NCBI RefSeq assembly: GCF_000702545.1
Contig: NZ_JNIO01000002.1
Span: 434,001-498,000 of the forward strand
DNA length: 64,000 bases
Source: Selenomonas sp. AB3002
GTDB lineage: Bacteria; Bacillota; Negativicutes; Selenomonadales; Selenomonadaceae
Direction: 5' to 3'
Below are positions 54,905 through 59,858 of this stretch, piece by piece; positions within the stretch are counted from its first letter, which is position 1; each line of letters starts with the position of its first letter. Both the position numbers and the translations under genes were made by a program. The notes below the pieces were generated by a model. That model did no database searches. It was not told the DNA's origin and was given only the letters and a program-made list of their open reading frames with translations.

Positions 54905-54995
54905 CTATAATCCATCAGCAATATGCTTTACATAATAACAGATATCTGTATAAAAATCCAGTAGTTTTGTTTATTTTTGTGCAACAAAAGAGAAA

Positions 54996-55020
54996 GCATA
55001 GCCGTGATGCACGGCCATGC
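54996..55020 (-). terminator. Terminator of the partner-switching operon
   Basis: GCATAGCCGTG (54996-55006) pairs with CACGGCCATGC (55010-55020); TTTCTCTTTTG follows on the minus strand. Confidence 0.7.
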
Positions 55021-55050
55021 CTGTCTTTCTTGTCATAATAAAACATATTT

Positions 55051-56898
55051 TTAACTACTAACCCAACGGCGCTGATATTTTTCCATTTCTCCCAAGATAT
55101 GCAAGGTAATGTGCTTGCGGAAAGAATTACTCCCCAGGGCCAGATCCATTAACTGAGGCAGCGGTACGATAAGAATCCTGGCCTTTTCGCTAAGCACCTC
55201 TCCCATGACGCTGGACTTGCACCGCTCCATCATCACTGTCTCATTAAGGATTTTCCCTTCTTTGGCTACATCCAGCATGCTATACCAGCCAGAGCCGGGA
55301 TCCATAAGTCTGGCCACCCTGCCTTCCAAAAGGAAGAACATCTGACCATAATCATGGTTCATCATGATCTGGTCATTCTCAAAATACGTACGCAATTTCG
55401 CAGCCCTGGCCACCTGATAGAGCTTCTCTTCCAAAATACCCTGAAAAAATGACAGTTCCTTGAGATAAGCCATGATATTCCGCTCCGAAAGAGACTCGGG
55501 ACTCTCTTCCCTGCTTTCCAGCCGTATTCTGAGGCCCTGCCCAAAGGAAGCAACCTGCCTGTCCATTTGCAGCAGCATGGTGTGCAGGGTCACGATGTAG
55601 CGCCTGCAAAGCTCCCCCAACCCCTTCTCGCTTATGCTGTAGCGGTTGTAGAGAATCGAAAGAGAAATGCTGCCTTCCACATACTGGAAATAAATGCCCA
55701 ATGGAAGTCCCTGAGCATCCCATGACTGCTCATAAACCTGAGTACCAGCGAAAGTGCCCTCTGCACTGGCATAATCTACCCCCATCCCTGTGAAAGCATG
55801 GAAATTCAGGAAGTGGTCAAAAAGACCTCGCCGCTCCCCCAGCAGTGTTTCCAGCCCGTTGCGCTCAAAACAGCTGAAGGGACTGGAGAGAGAAAGCTGC
55901 TTGGCAAGCCTTGAAGCCGCACTGTCTAACGTCTCCTTGGGAGGGCATTTCAGACGCACGGGTATCATACCCAGGTTGCCTCCCGCCCCCTTTTTCCCTT
56001 CGTTGGAAAGCAGCAGAAAATAAGTGTCCCCGGTGTGATTCTCATACTGCAGAAAAAGACCCCAGGCCATATACAAAAGCCCCATCATGCGGTAGATATC
56101 TCCCCCGGTACTCTTCAACAGATGCGCCGTTTCAGAAGGGATTACCACCCGATAGGCACTCTGGGAAAAACTATCCGTATCGGGCTTGAATCCCGGCAGG
56201 ACAGGCTTCATGGGCAGATCGTCCAGCACTTTTTGCCAGTATCCCATAATTGTCCCGGTAAGTTCTTTGTTTTCCTGCCGCAAAGCTGCTGGCGTAAACT
56301 GGTTCCTGTTTTCACGATACTCATAGCCCTGGGATTCCACAATGATCTTCGCCATATCCAAATGGCTCATGACCAATCCCAACCCCGTCACTACCACTGC
56401 AAATTCATTTGACGAGGTTCTAACCACCATAAAGCGCACCAACGGTTCCCGGGTCAACGAGAACGGTCTGCGCCTTTCTGCCTCAGACAGTTTCATCAAG
56501 GCAGCATCCAATTCCTCACTGCCCAAGCCCTGTTGGGCAATATTGCGGTAGATAATCTCAGGCTGTACTCGTCGCAACTTGAAGATCAATTTTACCCACT
56601 TGCCCTGCAACTCGCAGTAATTGCACCTGAGATTCTTGTCAGTTTCAAAAGCAGAAAAGACTACCCGATTGAAATGAAGAGGTGAAATATTTCCCTGCAC
56701 CTTGTAGATGCGCTGCAAGGAAAAATATGGGGAAATAAAGCCCCTGGGATCAAAGAAAGTCTTCTCCTCATCATCCAGCTGCTCCACCGCTTCAATATCT
56801 GCCGCCAGCACAGTGGTACCAATGCCGCATGCTTTGCGAAGTGCCTCCTTCTCTTCCTTCGACATGCCCTCGGTGGCTGTTTCAAAAGGATTTTTCAT
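55051..56898 (-). CDS. Condensation-like domain fused to a cyclic-nucleotide-binding domain
   Basis: Residues about 50-455 resemble the NRPS condensation superfamily: PFSLTREPLVRFMVVR (145-160), the active-site strand TGLGLVMSHLDMAK (171-184) and GGNLGMIPVRLKC (306-318). The HHxxxDG motif is degenerate, both His being replaced by V176-M177 while D181 remains, so catalysis is unlikely. After a linker, residues about 480-610 form a cNMP-binding-type barrel (FFQGILEEKLYQVARAAKLRTYFENDQIM, GQMFFLLEGRVARLM, GKILNETVMMERCKSSV). It ends without an HTH. It is the last gene of a phosphatase-STAS-RsbW operon. Start follows AGGAGG. Its role as output protein is inferred. Confidence 0.75.
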   Translation of the reverse strand: MKNPFETATEGMSKEEKEALRKACGIGTTVLAADIEAVEQLDDEEKTFFDPRGFISPYFSLQRIYKVQGNISPLHFNRVVFSAFETDKNLRCNYCELQGKWVKLIFKLRRVQPEIIYRNIAQQGLGSEELDAALMKLSEAERRRPFSLTREPLVRFMVVRTSSNEFAVVVTGLGLVMSHLDMAKIIVESQGYEYRENRNQFTPAALRQENKELTGTIMGYWQKVLDDLPMKPVLPGFKPDTDSFSQSAYRVVIPSETAHLLKSTGGDIYRMMGLLYMAWGLFLQYENHTGDTYFLLLSNEGKKGAGGNLGMIPVRLKCPPKETLDSAASRLAKQLSLSSPFSCFERNGLETLLGERRGLFDHFLNFHAFTGMGVDYASAEGTFAGTQVYEQSWDAQGLPLGIYFQYVEGSISLSILYNRYSISEKGLGELCRRYIVTLHTMLLQMDRQVASFGQGLRIRLESREESPESLSERNIMAYLKELSFFQGILEEKLYQVARAAKLRTYFENDQIMMNHDYGQMFFLLEGRVARLMDPGSGWYSMLDVAKEGKILNETVMMERCKSSVMGEVLSEKARILIVPLPQLMDLALGSNSFRKHITLHILGEMEKYQRRWVSS

Positions 56899-56909
56899 AG
56901 AGCATCCTC

Positions 56910-57347
56910 CTATATAGCCAAGGCGAATCTCAAGGTCAGATGATTGCAGTACAGCCCCTCTTCCAGTCCGTAATGATAGCAGATATCTGCAAAAACCCGG
57001 CGCATAAAGGCGATGCCCAGTCCCCCTATCTCCGTTTCCTCCAAAGATTGGGGCCTGTTTTCCAGCGCATCTTCCTTGAGCAAGGGATTGAATGGCTTGC
57101 CACTGTCCTTTATTTCCAGCACCAACTCTTCATTTTCCTGATAAACTTTCAGCCAGACCTTCCCCTCTTCACCCGGTTCGTAGGCATAAGAAATGACATT
57201 TATCACGGCTTCCTCAAAACCCAGCTGCAACTTAAGCTGCCGCTTCATGGGCATTTCTGCTTCCTCGGCACAGGACAGCACATAAGCGAGCATTTCCTCG
57301 TAGCTTGACTGCCTGGCGGGGAAATCTTTCCATTCTTCCCTATTCAC
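56910..57347 (-). CDS. RsbW-like anti-sigma-type serine kinase
   Basis: The 145-residue HATPase_c_2 protein has the N-box EEAVINVISYAYEP (45-58), the G1 box IKDSGKPFNPL (79-89) and a G2 box EIGGLGIAFMRR (106-117). RsbW/SpoIIAB kinases phosphorylate an STAS antagonist and bind a partner, classically a sigma factor. The G-rich DSGKPFNPL and GGLGI blocks are intact, so it should be active. It overlaps the STAS gene by four bases (ATGA) and ends 11 bases before the condensation-like gene. No sigma factor is encoded in the operon. Confidence 0.88.
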   Translation of the reverse strand: MNREEWKDFPARQSSYEEMLAYVLSCAEEAEMPMKRQLKLQLGFEEAVINVISYAYEPGEEGKVWLKVYQENEELVLEIKDSGKPFNPLLKEDALENRPQSLEETEIGGLGIAFMRRVFADICYHYGLEEGLYCNHLTLRFALAI

Positions 57348-57664
57348 GGCAGTGCCTCCAAATCCTCATACTGTTCAAAGAAAGCATCTATACCGGACTC
57401 CTCCAGTATCTCTCCCACCATGCCGCCAACCCCCACCAAGGCAGCCTTGCCTCCCGCAGCCTTGGCCTTTTTCATGATCATCAAAAGCACCCTGAGCCCT
57501 GCACTGCTTATGTACTGAAGCTCCGAAAGCTCAAGAGCCATCTGCACACCATCGCCCAGCTTGCCCATGGCCACCTGCTCCAACTCCGGCGCCGTCTGGG
57601 TATCAAGGCGATCCGTAAGAGCCAGTACCAGCCAGTTATTCTGCTTCTTTTCAGTGATGTTCAT
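57344..57664 (-). CDS. STAS-domain anti-sigma factor antagonist
   Basis: The 106-residue protein is a single STAS domain (RsbV/SpoIIAA type). The likely phosphorylation site is S53 or S54 in LQYISSAGLRVLLMIM, with the usual RLDTQTAPELEQ strand near residue 19. It would be phosphorylated by the RsbW-like kinase and dephosphorylated by the SpoIIE-type phosphatase encoded upstream. The start follows AAGGAG. It lies 31 bases after the phosphatase gene. Confidence 0.9.
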   Translation of the reverse strand: MNITEKKQNNWLVLALTDRLDTQTAPELEQVAMGKLGDGVQMALELSELQYISSAGLRVLLMIMKKAKAAGGKAALVGVGGMVGEILEESGIDAFFEQYEDLEALP

Positions 57665-57695
57665 AGCAATTTCTCCTTATAGTATACATGTACAT

Positions 57696-59858
57696 CTATT
57701 GAATATCAGGTATATCATTTTCTGCCACTCTGCCAAAGCGCAGAGCAAGCATGGTGATATCGTCAAACTGCTCAGTCCCGTCGGCAAAGGCATCAAGCCG
57801 CTCCTTCACTTTCACACAGAGAGGAGCCACCTCCAAGCCCCTGCCCTCCTGCAGGATTTCCTCCAGCCTTGCCTCCCCGAAGAACTCTCCTGCTTCATTG
57901 TTGCTCTCGGACACTCCGTCCGTGTAAAGGTAAATGATATCACCGGGACTGAGGGTAATATGACGGGAAGTGTAAGGCACATCCTCCACACTCCCCAGCA
58001 TGATGCCGGATTTCTTCTTCACCCATTCCCCTCCGACCTCCGGGTGCAGGATATAGGGAGCTGTATGACCGCAATTCACATAATCAAGTTCTCCAGTGTT
58101 GATGTCCAGAATACCCAGCCACACAGTCACGAACATGCCGCGCTCATTGCCCTGGCATAGAGTGTCATTGGCATCCCGGGCAATCTCGTTCACAGAAATT
58201 CCTGTTTCTGCCAGCGCCTTGATTACAGCCCTGGCCCTCATCATGAACATGGCGGCAGGTATTCCCTTGCCGGACACATCAGCTACGACAAAAGCCAGCT
58301 TGTCCGTACCCACAAAGTAAAAATCATAGAAATCCCCCCCCACTTCCTTGGCAGTATCCATGGAAGCGTAGATATCAAATTCCTTGCGCTGGGGAAAGGG
58401 CGGAAAGATGGAGGGCAGGGACGAATATTGTATTTCCCTGGCAAATTCCAGTTCCCTGTCAATGCGGGCCGCCGCCTCGTCAATATAATGCTTGAGAGTG
58501 GCCACTGTATTGTTGATGTCGTCGGACAGGGAAGTGAATTCCTCGCTGCTGCGCACATCCACCACCACATCCAGCTGCCCGGCAGTAATGCGGCTCAGAG
58601 ACTTGTTGATGCTGTGAATCTTGTCCACAATCAGCCGCCGTATCAGGCAGTAGATGAGAATGAAGAGGGCGGAAAAAATCAGCACTATCACAAAGGTCAT
58701 GAGATAGACAGAAAGGTTTCTGGAAAAGTCCGCCTTTTCCACTGGCGCCACTGCCATGGTGCGGTACCTTCCCGCCTCCTGCCACATCACATAGGCCTCC
58801 TTGCCCCCTATTATGGCCAAGGATATTTCCCCTTCTTCCAGGCTCGGCCAGTCAATCTGGGTATTTCCCTCCGTAATCTCCTCTTCTGCTCCCACTGCCG
58901 TGCTCTTCAGCCTGCCCTCCTGGTCAAAGACCAGCAGATAGCCGCTGTCTCCCACGTGCCAGTTCTCAGTGATGCTGCCTATCAGCAGCCCGGGATCCTC
59001 CTGAGAGCCGTCGAAGAATTTTCCTTCAGGGTCATCCTCTCCCCCTTTGGCCTTGAGCATTTCATTGCGCCCGGCCACGGAGATGATTTCCCGCTTCAGA
59101 TCCTCTAGATTCTGACGGAAAGTTTCCTCCATGGTGCCATGGTAAATACGGGTTTGCAGCGCATAGGTAAAGGAAAAAGCACAGCCAAAAGCCACCACGA
59201 TGCAAACCAACAGCCACTTTTGAAAGGTCTCGGCAATATGGGGCACGCCCTCCCGCCGGATGATCTTTTCTTTGCCCATGATTCCCACCACCAGCAAAGC
59301 CAGCATGACCGAGCAGGCATTGGCAGTAACCATAGGTCCGGTGCAGAGCTGGATGAAGTGGAAGCCTGTCCTGGCATCATCCATATTGGTGAAGAAAATC
59401 AGGGTCATGTGGACGATTTCCGCCACGCCTCCCACCGCCAGGCCGTATACCCAGCCAGGCTTCTTGTCCTCAAACATATAGCGTCTGAGTCCCGCCGCAA
59501 AGAAACCAGCGAACATTGTCCCCAAAGTACAGGCCAGCTGAGTGTAGAACCCCGCACCCCACCAGGCCGCCAGATATCTTTCTATGCCGCCGATAAGCCC
59601 GGCCATAATGCCGGCGGGCGCACCGAAAATAAGTCCGGCACAAATAGGAGCCGCATCCCGGACATTGACCCGCAAACCGTCCATAGGCACTCCAAACTCC
59701 GTGCCGAAAACCGCTGCCAGGCCAAAGCAAAATCCTGCCAGCAACTGCTTCTTCCTTGGACTCCATTGGGAAAGCGGCTTGCTATATGCCCAATAAAGCA
59801 CGGCTGACAGAAGCACCGGCAGCAAGGCCACCAAGGCCAGAGGCAGATATTTAGCCAT
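57696..59858 (-). CDS. Membrane SpoIIE-type (PP2C) serine phosphatase with LytS-like sensor region
   Basis: Residues about 1-200 form six or so helices resembling 5TM-5TMR_LYT modules (GLRVNVRDAAPICAGLIFGAPAGIMAGLIGGIERY). An extracytoplasmic region of about 160 residues follows (220-385), then a helix, a HAMP-like stretch (INKSLSRITAGQLDVVVDVRSSEE), and a PP2C domain with EVGGDFYDFY, ADVSGKGIPAAMFM, YTDGVSE and QFDDITMLAL carrying the metal-binding Asp residues. It dephosphorylates the STAS protein in response to an outside or membrane signal. The ATG at 59858 follows TAGGAGA at 7 bases. It is the first gene of the operon. Confidence 0.9.
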   Translation of the reverse strand: MAKYLPLALVALLPVLLSAVLYWAYSKPLSQWSPRKKQLLAGFCFGLAAVFGTEFGVPMDGLRVNVRDAAPICAGLIFGAPAGIMAGLIGGIERYLAAWWGAGFYTQLACTLGTMFAGFFAAGLRRYMFEDKKPGWVYGLAVGGVAEIVHMTLIFFTNMDDARTGFHFIQLCTGPMVTANACSVMLALLVVGIMGKEKIIRREGVPHIAETFQKWLLVCIVVAFGCAFSFTYALQTRIYHGTMEETFRQNLEDLKREIISVAGRNEMLKAKGGEDDPEGKFFDGSQEDPGLLIGSITENWHVGDSGYLLVFDQEGRLKSTAVGAEEEITEGNTQIDWPSLEEGEISLAIIGGKEAYVMWQEAGRYRTMAVAPVEKADFSRNLSVYLMTFVIVLIFSALFILIYCLIRRLIVDKIHSINKSLSRITAGQLDVVVDVRSSEEFTSLSDDINNTVATLKHYIDEAAARIDRELEFAREIQYSSLPSIFPPFPQRKEFDIYASMDTAKEVGGDFYDFYFVGTDKLAFVVADVSGKGIPAAMFMMRARAVIKALAETGISVNEIARDANDTLCQGNERGMFVTVWLGILDINTGELDYVNCGHTAPYILHPEVGGEWVKKKSGIMLGSVEDVPYTSRHITLSPGDIIYLYTDGVSESNNEAGEFFGEARLEEILQEGRGLEVAPLCVKVKERLDAFADGTEQFDDITMLALRFGRVAENDIPDIQ

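Follow-up and report, generated by a model that had tools for sequence, protein, structure and literature searches.

The window analysed here, a stretch of 64,000 nucleotides from Selenomonas sp. AB3002 (contig NZ_JNIO01000002.1, positions 434,001 to 498,000; genome size 3.67 Mb), carries on its minus strand a four-gene operon that is a real, conserved partner-switching module with no sigma factor and with a new kind of effector. Read from 59858 to 55051, the operon encodes a SpoIIE-type (PP2C) membrane phosphatase with a 5TM-LYT sensor region and a HAMP-like linker (57696..59858), a STAS antagonist of 106 residues (57344..57664), an RsbW/SpoIIAB-like serine kinase of 145 residues with a GTG start (56910..57347) and a protein of 615 residues, here called FUS, in which a pseudo-condensation domain is joined to a cyclic-nucleotide-binding-like domain (55051..56898). 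The phosphatase coordinates assume an ATG start, the open frame itself beginning ahead of it at TTG 59879. The spacing is 31 bp between phosphatase and STAS genes and 11 bp between kinase and FUS genes, while the STAS and kinase genes overlap by 4 bp. An earlier sequence-only reading had described these genes as one operon with the same overlap and the same 11-base gap, a LytS-like sensor on the phosphatase and no sigma factor gene; the open reading frames and Pfam matches bear this out, with alignments adding to the identification of the STAS protein and kinase and a sequence profile to that of FUS, and no sigma factor gene is found in the operon in either the open reading frame list or Pfam. 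The named relatives of the window FUS are from Selenomonas. The order phosphatase-STAS-kinase-FUS, which the same reading had proposed looking for elsewhere, is identical in three congeneric genomes (loci L041, L043 and L044), and because of this recurrence the arrangement is not a product of chance. The fourth congeneric genome (L042) has STAS-kinase-FUS and lacks the phosphatase, and the fifth (G005) has neither a FUS nor a kinase match.

Judged by their sequences, the first three products have the features of a partner-switching system (a SpoIIE domain, a serine at the start of helix 2 and intact kinase boxes), and the switch components look active. The phosphatase matches Pfam 5TM-5TMR_LYT at 86.1 bits and SpoIIE at 175.7 bits, with HAMP at 20.3 bits falling under its cut-off of 25. 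The STAS domain scores 56 bits, and residues Ser54 (within ISSAGLR), Gly56 and Arg58 are invariant in all 26 aligned STAS proteins; Ser54, which we take to be the equivalent of SpoIIAA Ser58, is the expected phosphorylation site. The kinase matches HATPase_c_2 at 71.9 bits, and E45/E46, N50, D81, G83 (DxG) and G108/G109/G111 (GGxG, 108-111), in the N- and G-boxes of a GHKL kinase, do not vary in any of the 24 kinases aligned. None of the four proteins exceeds the NCBIfam cut-off for a specific system, the STAS protein reaching only the general anti-sigma-factor-antagonist superfamily.

The last gene product is the unusual member. As a single sequence FUS matches the Pfam Condensation family (44 bits, cut-off 30.6) and no Pfam cyclic-nucleotide domain, while a profile of 32 sequences, of whose 150 matches the best 60 were considered, resolves both halves of the protein. 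Residues ~31-457 (55528..56808, minus strand) align with the condensation domain of bacitracin synthase 3, a non-ribosomal peptide synthetase (NRPS), with a whole-sequence E-value of 3.7e-55, and the C-terminal domain (residues ~465-606; 55081..55506, minus strand) aligns over residues ~470-607 with CRP and PKG structures (2pqq, 4.4e-9; 5bv6, 8.1e-8; CRP, 3e-7). Within the first domain the catalytic motif HHxxxDG is replaced by LGLVMSH at residues 173-179 (read by eye in the alignment to 9rde), and the motif is absent from every FUS row with letters at that site, 51 rows out of 53 (by eye; some rows are duplicates of one gene). The family sequence 'alqliadr' lies below 'NHHILLDG' of bacitracin synthase, and the catalytic histidine has therefore been lost. 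Divergence is deep: of the 31 other alignment rows, 28 share 20-34% identity with the window FUS, and 11 columns do not vary. The full-length AlphaFold model, built from 8 sequences, lends weak support (predicted local distance difference test (pLDDT) 58, predicted template-modelling (TM) score 0.36; Foldseek matches to condensation domains at TM ~0.25 with a root-mean-square deviation of ~20 Å).

The predicted model of the C-terminal domain alone (pLDDT 72.7) is consistent with the cyclic-nucleotide-binding fold, the top Foldseek matches being mostly nucleotide domains of PKG, PKA, HCN and CNG proteins (best E 8.4e-7), with TM-scores that are low at 0.34-0.50 by query. Thus the sequence-only description of a degenerate condensation domain fused to a cyclic-nucleotide-type domain agrees with Pfam, the profile and the model. 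A canonical phosphate-binding cassette contains GE and an Arg within R-[ST]-A. The FUS cassette reads GWYNxLDIxKExxxLNE...K; a G is changed to N in 19 of 19 aligned C-terminal rows, and a K or R lies near the cassette in 18 of 19 (by eye), outside the canonical R-[ST]-A context. A class III cyclase (PF00211) is matched in only 1 of 16 genomes, 15 of which have FUS, in a search that did not extend to other cyclase classes or c-di-AMP synthases. A classic cAMP or cGMP input was rejected on the 15 of 16 genomes that have no such match, and the nucleotide proposed earlier as a second input to FUS is not supported, in view of the altered cassette and the missing cyclase matches. The FUS chain stops at a conserved terminal helix (EMEKYQRRWV), and since it ends there it has no helix-turn-helix. 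Because HHxxxDG is lost and a helix-turn-helix is missing, FUS is most likely a binding protein rather than an enzyme or DNA-binding regulator.

Several variants and distant matches of FUS were seen. Genome G025 encodes a mini-FUS of 369 residues (L080:7913-9022) that keeps the N-terminal part and the cyclic-nucleotide-like domain, the remainder of the condensation domain being gone. An NRPS-sized frame of 5172 residues (G075:C1:193804-201531, partly covered by L038) matches the condensation part of FUS (E 5.5e-9) and, weakly, its cyclic-nucleotide-like part (E 8.1e-5), a possible hint at how the fusion arose. Residues 473-599 of the window FUS give a weak NCBIfam match to a family 2B encapsulin shell protein (E 7.5e-4, far under the cut-off), probably, we assume, through that protein's cyclic-nucleotide-like insert.

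FUS is largely confined to one lineage. A search with the single sequence finds matches in 30 of 100 relatives, own genome included, three of them (G075, G083, G099) only through NRPS-sized frames. The FUS profile, run over 398 genomes of the phylum with at most three candidates scored per genome, locates full-length FUS at no fewer than 7 places in at least 6 genomes, all of the window's family; outside the family the two halves are found apart. Across the phylum, matches to the C-terminal half alone are mostly to frames of ~220-260 residues, the size of CRP/FNR regulators. Near-full-length FUS occurs in two genomes of other families of the same class (G061, G072). A plasmid-borne FUS was considered and rejected, the sole match on plasmids being an NRPS in Paenibacillus with 45% coverage.

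Co-occurrence was scored across the window's family in a set of 151 genomes (FUS at E<=1e-40, kinase at E<=1e-9, STAS at E<=1e-12). FUS is present in 76 and the kinase model matches 88, or 87 with strong matches when G562, which has a weak one only, is set aside. Both are found in 74 genomes, FUS only in 2, the kinase only in 13 and neither in 62 (Fisher p 1.2e-26), and the two FUS-only genomes, G006 and G562, have completeness values of 79% and 81%. STAS is matched in 93 genomes; counted by eye, these include every FUS genome except G035 (75 of 76) and 18 of the 75 that lack FUS. Because the genomes are related, the association was examined again in independent pairs on a fliM tree. Fifteen pairs have FUS on one side only; on average the kinase follows FUS in 8.7 of them and runs counter to it in 0.0 (median sign-test p 0.0039), and with the kinase threshold at E<=1e-40 the values are 10.6 and 0.0 (p 0.00098). 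The tree holds 100 genomes selected from the 151 (53 of 76 with FUS, 12 of 13 with kinase and no FUS, and 35 of 62 with neither, for which genera of mixed state were taken first) and is based on one 573-bp gene fragment with strands set by similarity, 62 of its 97 inner branches being well supported. An earlier fliM tree (11 pairs; 5.7 same, 0.0 opposite) was dropped since 11 rows were of uncertain strand and some of them had been set on the wrong one; its tests had the same direction.

The arrangement of the genes around FUS separates the STAS protein from the kinase. Within 5 kb of FUS, 21 of the 76 genomes have both STAS and kinase, 14 have STAS alone, none has the kinase alone and 41 have neither; STAS thus lies within 5 kb in 35 genomes against ~0.9 by chance, and the kinase in 21 against ~0.7 (uniform placement). 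Since STAS occurs there without the kinase in 14 genomes and the kinase without STAS in none, STAS is the persistent neighbour of FUS. Past the 5-kb limit, kinases lie at 8.1 kb in G024 and at 7.5 kb in G565, the latter with no listed STAS near FUS. STAS adjoins a FUS fragment at a contig end in G006, where the gene is probably split over two contigs, so that this genome is probably a fifteenth STAS-only case and the unlinked count 40 instead of 41. Gene orders (P, phosphatase; S, STAS; K, kinase; F, FUS) include P-S-K-F, K-S-P-F, F-K-S, F-S-K, K-F-S, P-K-F-S, P-S-F, F-S and F-S-P-P, and as they vary between genera the association of FUS with the switch has survived repeated rearrangement. Parsimony gives 11 changes between linked and unlinked states on a quick tree of 57 FUS proteins, 33 of them set as linked and the split gene of G006 set as unlinked. 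Taken together, co-occurrence, the phylogenetic test and the rearranged linkage support FUS as a genuine functional associate of the switch, of which it looks like a lineage-specific partner.

In the kinase loci of G020, G022 and G048 that were read, a phosphatase and a kinase occur with no STAS, G022 and G048 having the two as a single fused protein, while STAS lies 77, 28 and 16 bp from FUS, respectively. Coordinates alone show the same pattern in G488, G555, G560, G566 and G568, which makes 8 of the 14 STAS-only genomes in which no listed STAS lies near the kinases and one adjoins FUS. From this pattern the module appears to fall into two parts, one pairing the enzymes and the other pairing substrate and effector, a division like that between SiaA/SiaB and SiaC/SiaD. 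Fusions of kinase and phosphatase also occur at L091, L095, L096 and L165, and no fusion of FUS to STAS or kinase was found among the labelled open reading frames read. Two stretches hold tandem FUS paralogues with no switch genes in the part covered (L051:7988-11724 and L075:8079-11880), and beside one kinase-FUS-STAS cluster, on the opposite strand, lies an ABC ATPase with a C-terminal HATPase_c_2 domain (L139:10366-11547).

We consider it somewhat probable that this is a complete partner-switching module in which FUS, not a sigma factor, is the dedicated partner and is acted on by STAS, and by analogy we favour an arrangement like that of SiaC and SiaD, with dephosphorylated STAS acting on FUS, over sequestration by the kinase. 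The membrane phosphatase would sense a signal through its 5TM-LYT region and dephosphorylate STAS at Ser54, and the RsbW-like kinase would rephosphorylate it. STAS, most likely when unphosphorylated, would then bind FUS and alter the way FUS works or assembles, in the manner of SiaC acting on SiaD in Pseudomonas. FUS itself would use a catalytically dead condensation domain as a binding platform, and its attached CRP-like domain may take a second input. The sequences themselves give the parts of the module, the state of the catalytic residues (intact or lost), the association across genomes and the pattern of linkage; phosphorylation, direct contact between STAS and FUS, the sign of that contact and any ligand are what we infer. 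More tentatively, and with slightly less confidence than in the module itself, FUS may typify a lineage-specific class of effectors, an NRPS-derived pseudo-condensation domain with a repurposed CRP-like sensor that is bound and switched by STAS, whose output would be neither a sigma factor nor an enzyme, with or without cyclic dinucleotide input, and in which STAS-FUS and phosphatase-kinase would be separable halves evolving as units.

A number of observations weigh against this interpretation. Gene linkage is no proof of contact between STAS and FUS, and FUS is unlinked to a listed STAS or kinase in 41 of the 76 genomes; several genomes hold further unlinked FUS paralogues. Homologues lying mostly away from the other three genes were what the sequence-only reading had named as refuting its proposal; the unlinked majority goes part of the way towards this, yet 74 of the 76 genomes carry the kinase somewhere. 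In thirteen genomes a kinase of this family occurs although FUS is absent. For the most part these kinases have weaker E-values than the kinases of FUS genomes, the two strongest belonging to G524 (86% complete) and G571 (82%). The kinase loci of all 13 were covered; of the 12 other than G016, 8 hold STAS, kinase and phosphatase in one cluster, and the kinase of G503 is unlabelled by the profile at its locus. The window's own genome has two more STAS-kinase-phosphatase modules without FUS, one of them with three successive phosphatases; the switch can thus do without FUS in places, and FUS cannot be the sole output of this kinase family. As to the STAS-only pattern, 6 of the 14 either have a listed STAS close to a kinase or yield no kinase match, the 14 come from few lineages (six from genus g16, three from g18, two from g12), and with a 10-kb limit G565 becomes one genome with a kinase and no listed STAS near FUS. 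With a STAS gene list that reaches only to ~E 4e-32, and with many assemblies broken into short contigs, a STAS beside a kinase may be missed; one further G022 kinase lies where its contig ends, and the kinase loci read cover neither the remaining one of that genome nor the second of G048. Finally, in the window's own genus it is the kinase and not STAS that adjoins FUS.

This last arrangement speaks for the leading competing explanation, in which the kinase sequesters FUS while STAS is phosphorylated and frees it upon STAS dephosphorylation, as RsbW does with SigB. The kinase-then-partner order resembles rsbV-rsbW-sigB, the order STAS-kinase-FUS is shared with G038 and G057 (genus g6), and kinase and FUS co-occur at the genome level. 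However, the 14-to-none asymmetry at 5 kb (with G565 the one reverse case at 10 kb) and the kinases with no listed STAS nearby in 8 STAS-only genomes speak against it, and we regard it as rather unlikely. The earlier proposal that FUS is held or released by the kinase is supported as regards a functional association; holding by the kinase is not supported as proposed, the linkage pointing to STAS as the constant neighbour.

Considerably less probable is that FUS forms the input, with a ligand sensed by its CRP-like domain tuning the phosphatase, kinase or STAS and the output being a sigma factor or other target elsewhere. The C-terminal fold of FUS does resemble a sensor, no domain for an output can be recognised in the protein, and at L046 one copy lies after STAS and response-regulator/diguanylate-cyclase genes, ahead of a hybrid histidine kinase. 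A candidate sigma factor is also at hand, as the best matches to the SigB/F/G model (TIGR02980) are frames of 378-742 residues (RpoD-like by size) and 246-267 residues (FliA-like by size), plus weaker partial ones, and a FliA-like gene, again by size, is present in all 12 genomes searched. Against this, no SigB/F/G factor is found above the cut-off in any of the 12 genomes with a model whose reach excludes unrelated sigma factors, FlgM is the partner expected to hold FliA, and G005 retains a FliA-like gene though it has no FUS or kinase match. A linkage devoid of function, in which the FUS gene is left over from an NRPS and merely travels with a common type of signalling module, is disfavoured as highly improbable: the unlinked copies, the dead condensation domain and the truncations or in-frame stops of some copies would fit, but FUS frames are conserved and mostly intact across the deep divergence noted above, the linkage is far over chance and the co-occurrence holds after phylogenetic control.

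Genes for GGDEF proteins were noticed next to FUS in two genomes. FUS directly follows response-regulator/GGDEF genes, with hybrid histidine kinases nearby, at L046:745-7997 and L055:2575-9261 (both G033), and directly follows a dCache-HAMP-GGDEF gene at L149:3707-10020 (G493). Such adjacency hints at a possible connection to cyclic di-GMP. A flagellar link was suggested by one FUS lying upstream of fliL/fliM-like genes (L045, by eye; fliM confirmed at G030:C7) and another before flagellin (L056). It was rejected as fliM (PF02154), present in 136 of the 151 genomes, fails to distinguish genomes with FUS (71 of 76) from those lacking it (65 of 75; by eye).

Beyond FUS, on the minus strand, a terminator-like hairpin of 13 pairs followed by TCTCTTTTGT (54994..55022; pattern match) lies 28 nt 3' of the FUS stop and ahead of a ferredoxin gene (Pfam); such sites are not enriched across the region (4 found, 6.1 expected from shuffles). 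Also beyond the hairpin lie genes read as 2-oxoacid:ferredoxin oxidoreductase, and such genes adjoin FUS in the four congeneric loci L041-L044. Elsewhere in the window's genome (L081:8522-16028; G000:C8, ~234.5-242 kb) a STAS-kinase pair is followed by three consecutive SpoIIE-type phosphatases and preceded by a radical-SAM protein that weakly matches a B12-binding domain. MATE-type transporters with a C-terminal RsbW-like HATPase_c_2 domain lie near phosphatase-kinase genes in six genomes (L085:2777-4582, L137:1303-3045, L138:9001-10755, L097:3002-4750, L087:9844-11748 and L165:8624-10375), three of the six domain matches being under the Pfam cut-off; these transporters may possibly act under, or feed into, partner switching. 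Some labels from the phosphatase profile were rejected and not counted, L050 and L060 being chemotaxis-type receptors and L149:5524-8115 a GGDEF protein.

Among known systems, sigma-free partner switching has precedents, and it is the FUS-type effector that is new to the literature searches made. No report joining Selenomonas or Negativicutes, or a condensation-domain effector, with partner switching, RsbW or STAS was found in open-licence PubMed Central articles, which is weak evidence because other searches returned nothing although relevant papers exist. FUS shares a sequence family with the condensation domains of the bacitracin, tyrocidine and surfactin synthetases, from which it differs as a 615-residue fusion outside any NRPS that has lost HHxxxDG; as a switch partner, it would put an NRPS domain devoid of catalysis to use in signalling. 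With CRP/FNR regulators and the cyclic-nucleotide domains of PKG and PKA it shares a fold, by profile and model, and differs in its altered cassette and lack of a helix-turn-helix. The RsbU-RsbV-RsbW-SigB and SpoIIE-SpoIIAA-SpoIIAB-SigF systems have the same three kinds of component with conserved kinase and STAS residues, whereas here the operon has no sigma factor and the 12 genomes searched show no SigB/F/G above cut-off. For Selenomonas and its relatives the FUS module would be a testable signalling route of few components. PMC8256260 describes SypA as an output that is active when unphosphorylated and whose target is unknown. PMC7647112 describes HsbR-HsbA-HsbD, BgrU/V/W-BgrR, Moorella MtT-MtG and SiaABC-SiaD as partner switches on diguanylate cyclases; the first three are like the present module in that the target is not a sigma factor, and unlike it in that the target is a diguanylate cyclase and not a condensation-like protein. 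The nearest counterpart is SiaABCD of Pseudomonas aeruginosa, in which the PP2C phosphatase SiaA and the kinase SiaB act with the STAS-like SiaC, which controls a non-sigma effector of the same operon (PMC7647112, PMC8457831), and SiaC binds SiaD directly (PMC8457831). In NCBIfam the window phosphatase scores highest against SiaA, with 65 bits where the cut-off is 700, so it is not a member of that family; the effector there is a diguanylate cyclase, whereas here it is a pseudo-condensation/CRP-like fusion, the sensor is 5TM-LYT and none of the four operon proteins has a GGDEF domain by Pfam. Where known partner switches free sigma factors or act on diguanylate cyclases, a family of partners built on a dead condensation domain would widen the range of targets of STAS proteins and their kinases.

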